The notes under the pieces are model-generated. The model ran no database searches, was not told where the DNA came from, and saw only the letters and a list, made by a program, of their open reading frames with translations. Below, piece after piece: positions 3,414 through 4,855 of a DNA stretch of 5,139 bases. Origin of the DNA: Actinomycetes bacterium. GTDB taxonomy: Bacteria > Actinomycetota > Acidimicrobiia > Acidimicrobiales > Palsa-688. Within the stretch, counting starts at the first letter, position 1. Every line of letters starts with the position of its first letter. Location of the stretch: assembly GCA_021821705.1 (NCBI GenBank), contig JAKACE010000173.1:1-5139 (forward strand). Direction: 5' to 3'. Made by a program: the position numbers and the translations under genes.

Positions 3414-4855
3414 GCGGACCGGTACACGCCATCGCAGCGGATGTGCGCTCGGGTCGTCGCAGCGCCGCCGAAGTCCTGGAGGAGCACCTCGGGCGCATTG
3501 GCGAGCGCGAGGAGTCTGTGCACGCGTTCAACCTGGTCACGGCCGACGCCGCCAGGCAGCGGGCCGGACAGATCGACCGTGCCGTTGCTGCCGGCGGCGA
3601 TCCCGGGCCGCTGGCAGGGGTCCCGGTGGCGCTCAAGGACCTGATCTGTACCCGAGGAGTGCCGACCACCTGTTCCTCGCGCATTCTCGAGGGATGGGTG
3701 CCTCCCTACGACGCGACGGTCGTCAGCCGCCTGGCAGGAGCGGGAGCGGTGTTCGTGGGCAAGGCCAACATGGACGAGTTCGCCATGGGTTCGTCGACCG
3801 AGCACTCTGCGTTCGGGCCGACCCGGAACCCCCACGACCTGTCGCGGGTCCCCGGCGGGTCTTCAGGCGGCAGCGCCGCCGCTGTGGCAGCGGGTTTCGT
3901 GGCCGCATCGCTGGGAAGCGACACCGGGGGCTCGATACGCCAGCCCGCCGCCCTGTGCGGCGTCGTCGGTGTCAAGCCCACCTACGGTCTCGTCTCTCGT
4001 TACGGACTGGTGGCCTTTGCCAGTTCGCTCGACCAGATCGGGCCGTTCGCAACAACTGTTGCCGATGCCGCTCTCGTGCTCGATGCCATCGCCGGGCATG
4101 ACCCAAGAGACTCGACCAGCCTTCCCGGCAAGCGGCCGGCGGCTGGCAGCAGGTTGGGGCGAGGTGCGGAGGGCTTGCGGGTTGGTGTGATCGCCGAACT
4201 GGCAGGCGCTGAGGGGATCTCGGCGGACGTGGCCGCCCGGGTCAGCGAAGCGGCCGAGGCGCTGGCCTCCGCCGGCGCCAAGGTGGAGGAGGTGAGCGTG
4301 CCGTCCGTCGTGTACGGGCTGTCCGCCTACTACATGATGGCCCCGGCGGAGGCCTCCTCCAACCTGGCCCGCTACGACGGGGTGCGCTAGGGGCTGCGCA
4401 AGCCGGGCGCCGACATCACCGACATGTACGTCGCCACCCGCTCCGCCGGTTTCGGGCCGGAGGTCAAGAGGCGCATCATGCTCGGCACGTACGCACTGTC
4501 TGCCGGTTACTACGACGCCTACTACGGCAAGGCCCAGAAGGTACGGACGCTCATCATCCGTGATTTCGAGGCGGCGTACCGCTCCTATGACGTGCTGCTC
4601 TCGCCGACTTCGCCCACGACGGCCTTCGAGCTCGGGACCAAGACGTCCGACCCGCTCACCATGTACCTGAACGACGTCTGCACGATCCCCTCCAACCTGG
4701 CCGGTCACCCCGCCGCCAGTGTCCCTTTCGGCACGGGCGACGACGGTCTGCCCGTGGGGGTGCAGGTGCTGGCGCCTGCACTGGGTGAACCCGTCATGTT
4801 CCAGGTGGCCGAAGTGCTCGAGGCCGCCGTCCCTTCGCGCCGAGGTGCCTCATGA
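3410..4855 (+). CDS. gatA: Glutamyl/aspartyl-tRNA amidotransferase subunit A, interrupted by an in-frame TAG
   Basis: GatA hydrolyses glutamine and supplies ammonia to GatB for transamidation of Glu-tRNA(Gln)/Asp-tRNA(Asn). The frame spans 481 sense-or-amber codons, a normal GatA length. Codon 327 (4388-4390) is TAG, so the uninterrupted 5' part encodes 326 residues (3410-4390). The amidase-signature triad is intact: K76 in VALKD, S151 in the PGGSSGGS loop and S175 in GGSIR, each three below S. aureus K79/S154/S178. The frame then resumes without any shift through typical GatA sequence (VKRRIMLGTYALSAGYYDAYY, SPTSPTTAF, IPSNLAGHPAASVPFG) to a TGA that overlaps the ATG of gatB. Relatives have Tyr at the TAG site (the DGVRYG motif), and nearly all Tyr codons here are TAC, so one C-to-G change explains it. 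A truncated product should be inactive. Either this is a sequence error, the TAG is read through, or the gene is a very fresh pseudogene. Confidence 0.93.
4388..4390 (+). other. In-frame amber (TAG) codon within gatA
   Basis: TAG replaces the conserved Tyr of the DGVRYG motif at codon 327 of gatA and is followed by GGG. The sequence on both sides is typical GatA in one frame, so no insertion or deletion is involved. No rescuing frame or splice-like element is seen. A recoding signal would have to be an RNA structure or a suppressor tRNA that cannot be judged from this window. Confidence 0.95.
4391..4855 (+). pseudogene. gatA: C-terminal part of gatA beyond the in-frame stop
   Basis: This is the 154-codon remainder of GatA. 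It carries R355 and D422, which align with a constant offset of three to S. aureus residues R358 and D425, recalled as glutamine-binding. The 326-residue N-terminal product therefore lacks part of the substrate site. The first in-frame ATG is at 4424 (143 residues to the end), but nothing resembling a ribosome-binding site precedes it, so separate initiation is poorly supported. Coding quality and codon use are unchanged from the 5' part, so there is no sign of decay. If TAG is read through, or is an error, this segment is simply the end of gatA. Confidence 0.7.
4842..4847 (+). promoter_or_regulatory. Ribosome-binding site of gatB
   Basis: GAGGTG near the end of gatA lies 4 bases before the ATG at 4852. 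Together with the ATGA overlap with the gatA stop, it fixes the start of gatB. Confidence 0.6.

Follow-up and report, generated by a model that had tools for sequence, protein, structure and literature searches.

An in-frame amber codon in gatA of an Acidimicrobiales draft genome, probably a sequencing or assembly artefact

Gene content of the contig and the interrupted gatA

We analysed a window of 5,139 bases that makes up the entire contig number 150 in a draft assembly of 522 contigs and 2.70 Mb, with a completeness of 61.05% and a contamination of 0.68%. The forward strand carries at 3..2075 a Ser/Thr kinase gene that lacks its 5' end and closes with a TAG at 2073-2075; its match to the PASTA-kinase family NF033483 (E 5.5e-105) reached 352.5 bits, under the cut-off of 450. 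Two genes recognised by Pfam were found on the reverse strand: an S4-domain gene within 2105-3012 and an SCP2-like gene at 2467-3012, the former starting where the latter ends. The rest of the window is taken up on the forward strand by gatC (3111..3413, 100 aa; TIGR00135, E 1.7e-25, 89.2 bits against a cut-off of 47.1), gatA, and the first 96 codons of gatB, which is truncated by the contig end (4852..5139; NF004013, E 2.9e-45). The Rfam search of the whole window gave no match.

Counted from its GTG start at 3410, gatA reads TAG at codon 327 (4388-4390, forward strand). The 5' part comprises 326 codons (3410..4387), and the 3' part (4391..4855) comprises 154 GatA-like codons (4391-4852) and a TGA at 4853-4855 that overlaps the gatB ATG at 4852. 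Both parts matched the gatA profile TIGR00132 in register, the 5' part over profile positions 9-315 (E 2e-119, 399.4 bits) and the 3' part over positions 324-463 of 466 (E 1.3e-53, 182.4 bits), each singly below the cut-off of 481.1 bits. The whole-genome profile scan likewise returned gatA as a single PF01425 match with one TAG inside. The sequence-only reading had described a TAG in an otherwise intact gatA, followed by 154 GatA-like codons and a stop overlapping gatB, and both the letters and the profile matches on the two sides bear this out. As written, the frame is that of an interrupted gatA, not of a working member of the family. If the stop is disregarded, the 481 codons make up an ordinary GatA, and the closest full-length relative among the matches listed has 481 residues and is 96% identical from end to end. 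Similarity to the GatA of GatCAB (TIGR00132; 2df4_A, 3h0l_A, 3al0_A) extends over nearly the whole length; the gatC-gatA-gatB order and the residues K76, S151, S175, R355 and D422 are common to both, and the window gene differs by the one TAG at codon 327. Many Acidimicrobiales drafts were present among the named relatives of this GatA (protein search, best 120 of 7999 matches).

K76, S151 and S175, which we take to be the catalytic residues of GatA, were conserved in 145, 145 and 144 of the 145 aligned homologues, respectively. R355 and D422 were invariant (145/145) and, counted along the printed alignment, correspond to positions 358 and 425 in the solved structure 2df4_A. These two are presumably glutamine-binding residues; our literature search on that role found no paper giving it. 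Both are located in the 3' piece and so, as had been proposed, are absent from the N-terminal product. We also compared the two parts of the gene with the copy in the nearest genus mate (G001; DNA 90.6% identical over 2096-5139). Ka/Ks was 0.046 before the TAG (Ka 0.0186, Ks 0.407) and 0.042 after it (Ka 0.0149, Ks 0.358), an equal constraint on both parts which indicates that the gene has not decayed. The pattern fits a false, a very new or a read-through stop alike, and rules out only an old pseudogene.

Codon 327 in relatives and error load of the contig

We read the site in three sets of relatives, which may overlap. The whole-genome search covered 60 relatives, and a GatA-grade match (E <= 1.6e-145) was recovered in 53 of them, none with an internal stop (0/53); loci were returned for 29 relatives, one of them read by a second motif, and codon 327 specifies Tyr in all 29. 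In the protein alignment, codon 327 corresponds to Tyr in 136 rows and Phe in nine (n=145; 148 proteins, omitting P0001, P0122 and one outside 440-560 aa). Finally, 76 of the 80 loci from named genomes were readable by motif, with Tyr in 58 and Phe in 18. No stop at codon 327 was found in any relative read in the three sets. The Tyr of the DGVRYG motif, earlier called conserved, is therefore strongly but not fully so, given the Phe in 9/145 proteins and 18/76 loci. A Tyr codon in sister genomes had been expected to mark the TAG as an error; both same-genus genomes have one, which favours error or variation.

The 326-residue protein (P0122, two member sequences) came from one contig of 5139 bases, and the nearest full-length relative (P0002) represents six contigs, both among the matches listed (best 120 of 7927). 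No other assembly of this species was found, a point that we count against an artefact.

We looked for a general excess of errors on the contig and did not find it. GatA departs from the conserved residue at none of the 216 near-invariant columns (at least 97% conserved; codon 327, with 94% Tyr, lies outside them). Lineage changes numbered 90 N and 126 S in the window against 67 N and 103 S in the sister (Fisher p 0.68), and 12 N and 44 S against 6 N and 33 S in gatA alone (p 0.60); codon 327 is outside these counts because its third base differs between the two genus mates. Bases copying a neighbour showed no excess: 111 in the window were the same as the next base against 116 in the sister, 121 against 118 the same as the previous one, and 43 against 64 were G before G. 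The absence of a general error load also counts against an artefact.

Among columns with at least 90% conservation, codons 310 and 327 were the sole GatA positions with a residue that no homologue shows. Codon 310 (4337..4339, forward strand) encodes Met, where the homologues have I (140), V (4) or L (1; n=145). Relatives carry between 0 and 5 such residues, at least one in 88/145 and at least two in 39/145, so the count of two in this GatA is ordinary. The third bases of the two codons are both G before G and stand 51 bases (17 codons) apart. Such closeness would fit one bad short read, but it is suggestive only, the general test being negative.

Decoding of TAG in the genome

The release factor RF1 is present in this genome (prfA on contig C32, 480.1 bits against a cut-off of 423.25). 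In this genome and in both genus mates, G001 and G002 (contigs C32, C64 and C13, respectively), prfA starts directly after the stop of the upstream gene and shares its frame. The upstream gene closes with TAA here and with TAG in the two mates, and in this genome and in G001 a GTG comes immediately after the stop. One stop flagged inside prfA in all three genomes was considered as a regulatory stop, but it is the one that closes this upstream gene.

In a sample of 233,421 bases, TAG ended 23 of 126 closed gene models, including gatA and the kinase gene of the window. The kinase orthologues of G001 and G002 have their stops at the same position, TGA in the former and TAG in the latter, and an ArsA-like gene (locus L143) is closed by TAG immediately before a histidine-kinase gene. 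No real internal stop was found in 105 domain matches of four families (60 ABC, 31 MFS, 11 short-chain dehydrogenase and 3 AMP-binding); one MFS match flagged with two TGA as internal stops proved to be a normal gene end. A scan of the same 233,421 bases for in-frame stops gave 59 loose hits, and the gatA TAG alone scored above 0.3 on both sides, in a scan of limited power (the median 30-codon score within genes was 0.31). Five of the six next-best hits by lower score were checked with Pfam: an ArsA-like gene followed by a histidine kinase and a weak ATPase match followed by an ABC permease, both read as ordinary junctions, one PNPOx gene followed by nothing, and two hits without any family. 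The sixth was antisense to the kinase gene of the window.

None of the 20 called tRNAs of this genome, which is 61% complete, has a CUA anticodon, and a weak 21st match that was not called by ARAGORN has the loop CGG by eye. Genes for tRNA-Tyr(GTA) and tRNA-Gln(CTG) are present, and these tRNAs could misread TAG. No notable RNA structure was found 3' of the TAG, where the stretch folds worse than shuffles (z +1.69). By title, the papers returned by a literature search on gatA, GatCAB and nonsense together concerned mitochondrial disease and termite-gut symbionts alone. Amber readthrough or suppression, one of the explanations first put forward, thus found no support: RF1 is present, TAG is an ordinary stop and no CUA tRNA was recovered from the 61% complete genome.

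Other routes to Gln- and Asn-tRNA

Neither GlnRS nor AsnRS passed its family cut-off in this genome or in its two genus mates. Completeness is 93% and 95% for the mates, which gives the absence more weight in them than in this draft. Among the 21 genomes searched, asnS was over the cut-off in 0 and glnS in three, so the indirect route to Gln-tRNA is not universal among the relatives; the three are G010, which belongs to the same family as the window, G035 and G037. Each genus mate has one GatB. The only amidase-family match in this genome is gatA itself; G001 has a second amidase-family match beside its gatA. With no other route to Gln- or Asn-tRNA found, a true gatA null should be lethal. The earlier argument from essentiality, built on the lack of GlnRS, AsnRS and a second gatA, stands so far as it is testable in this genome and the two mates.

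GatCAB is called essential in the accessible part of PMC7541841, and Table 1 of that paper lists 16 gatCAB mutation types from an M. smegmatis screen, none of them nonsense. Bacteria do tolerate some gatCAB changes: the accessible text of PMC8406222 describes M. catarrhalis with an altered GatA C terminus and without apparent loss of viability, a tolerance of GatA damage that counts against an artefact.

Discussion

The sequence-only reading had offered error, fresh mutation, strain variation and readthrough without choosing among them; our results favour error or variation and speak against readthrough. From the sequence comparisons, the TAG at codon 327 is probably a single-base sequencing or assembly artefact. 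Four observations together favour this explanation: sense codons at the site in all relatives read, a frame that has not decayed, a null that would likely be lethal, and the quality of the draft. The called base would be wrong and the true codon a sense codon, the fragmentary draft would reflect thin read coverage, and a normal GatA of full length would be expected in the living cells. False internal stops in assemblies have been linked to thin coverage, in the accessible part of PMC11017572. The spurious internal-stop pseudogenes of that paper are alike in being sound genes of draft genomes with a lone internal stop; its accessible text covers RefSeq assemblies, simulated reads and high-coverage reassemblies, whereas the window is one contig.

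The TAG could instead be a genuine recent nonsense allele, present in part of the population and taken as consensus by the assembler, its carriers being, for example, cells at a dead end or ones whose intact copy went unseen. The contig shows no other sign of error, and the missing part of a 61% complete genome could hold another gatA copy. Set against this are the lack of any other Gln- or Asn-tRNA route in the genome and its two mates, the single GatB of each mate, and the lack of nonsense among the 16 mutation types of the M. smegmatis screen (PMC7541841, Table 1), and we regard such an allele as unlikely, though second in likelihood to an artefact. Mycobacterial gatCAB mutants with raised mistranslation resemble the case in that gatA is altered in an actinobacterium with indirect charging of Gln- and Asn-tRNA; the changes described in the accessible parts of PMC7541841 and PMC8406222 are missense, in-frame or fusion changes, with no nonsense codon, and the clinical mutants are described there as partial loss of function. 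A gene truly split in two, with an enzyme assembled from the 326-residue product and a further polypeptide initiated at the ATG at 4424, appears very improbable. That ATG does lie in frame 12 codons downstream of the TAG, but the Met codon is also in the G001 and G002 copies and is thus not a new start, no stretch like a ribosome-binding site stands just before it (by eye), and in no relative read is the gene split at codon 327.

The remaining explanations keep the TAG and change how it is read. Partial readthrough by a near-cognate or suppressor tRNA would yield some full-length GatA, and the undiminished constraint after the TAG and the presence of the tRNA-Tyr and tRNA-Gln genes are in keeping with it; that constraint is, however, equally expected with a new or a false TAG, and RF1, the lack of a CUA anticodon among the called tRNAs of the 61% complete genome and, by eye, in the weak 21st match, the poor folding of the stretch after the TAG and the absence of the TAG from every relative read make readthrough improbable. 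We consider it highly unlikely that the sole GatCAB is run through a leaky amber codon, with full-length GatA made by misreading of TAG alone; as a reader such as tRNA-Gln(CUG) is charged via GatCAB, enzyme level and translation accuracy would then feed back on each other. Reassignment of TAG to an amino acid throughout the genome is nearly refuted. Nothing but the in-frame TAG itself speaks for it, while RF1 is present, TAG closes 23 of the 126 sampled gene models, the kinase TAG is placed where G001 has TGA, the ArsA-like gene ends with TAG directly before its neighbour, and the 105 domain matches are free of real internal stops. Phages that recode UAG have TAG in many genes and often encode a suppressor tRNA; neither many such genes nor a suppressor tRNA was seen in the window genome (61% complete). 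The signs of UAG recoding, namely TAG abandoned as a stop, many genes with in-frame TAG and loss of RF1, were not found here, and what the window genome has in common with these phages is an in-frame TAG (PMC10879173, PMC11210395, accessible parts).

The TAG in gatA is thus most likely not a new way of reading genes. When a fragmentary draft shows a lone stop in an essential gene, the stop calls for caution, being likelier an error signal than biology; most of the question that it raises is answered by sister genomes. If the leaky-amber reading were true, a wild actinobacterium would have a built-in mistranslation dial. Should the TAG prove real, gatA here would be a nonsense allele of natural origin, affecting the sole path to Gln- and Asn-tRNA that was found for the genus, and would offer a rare test, set by nature, of life with impaired charging accuracy.
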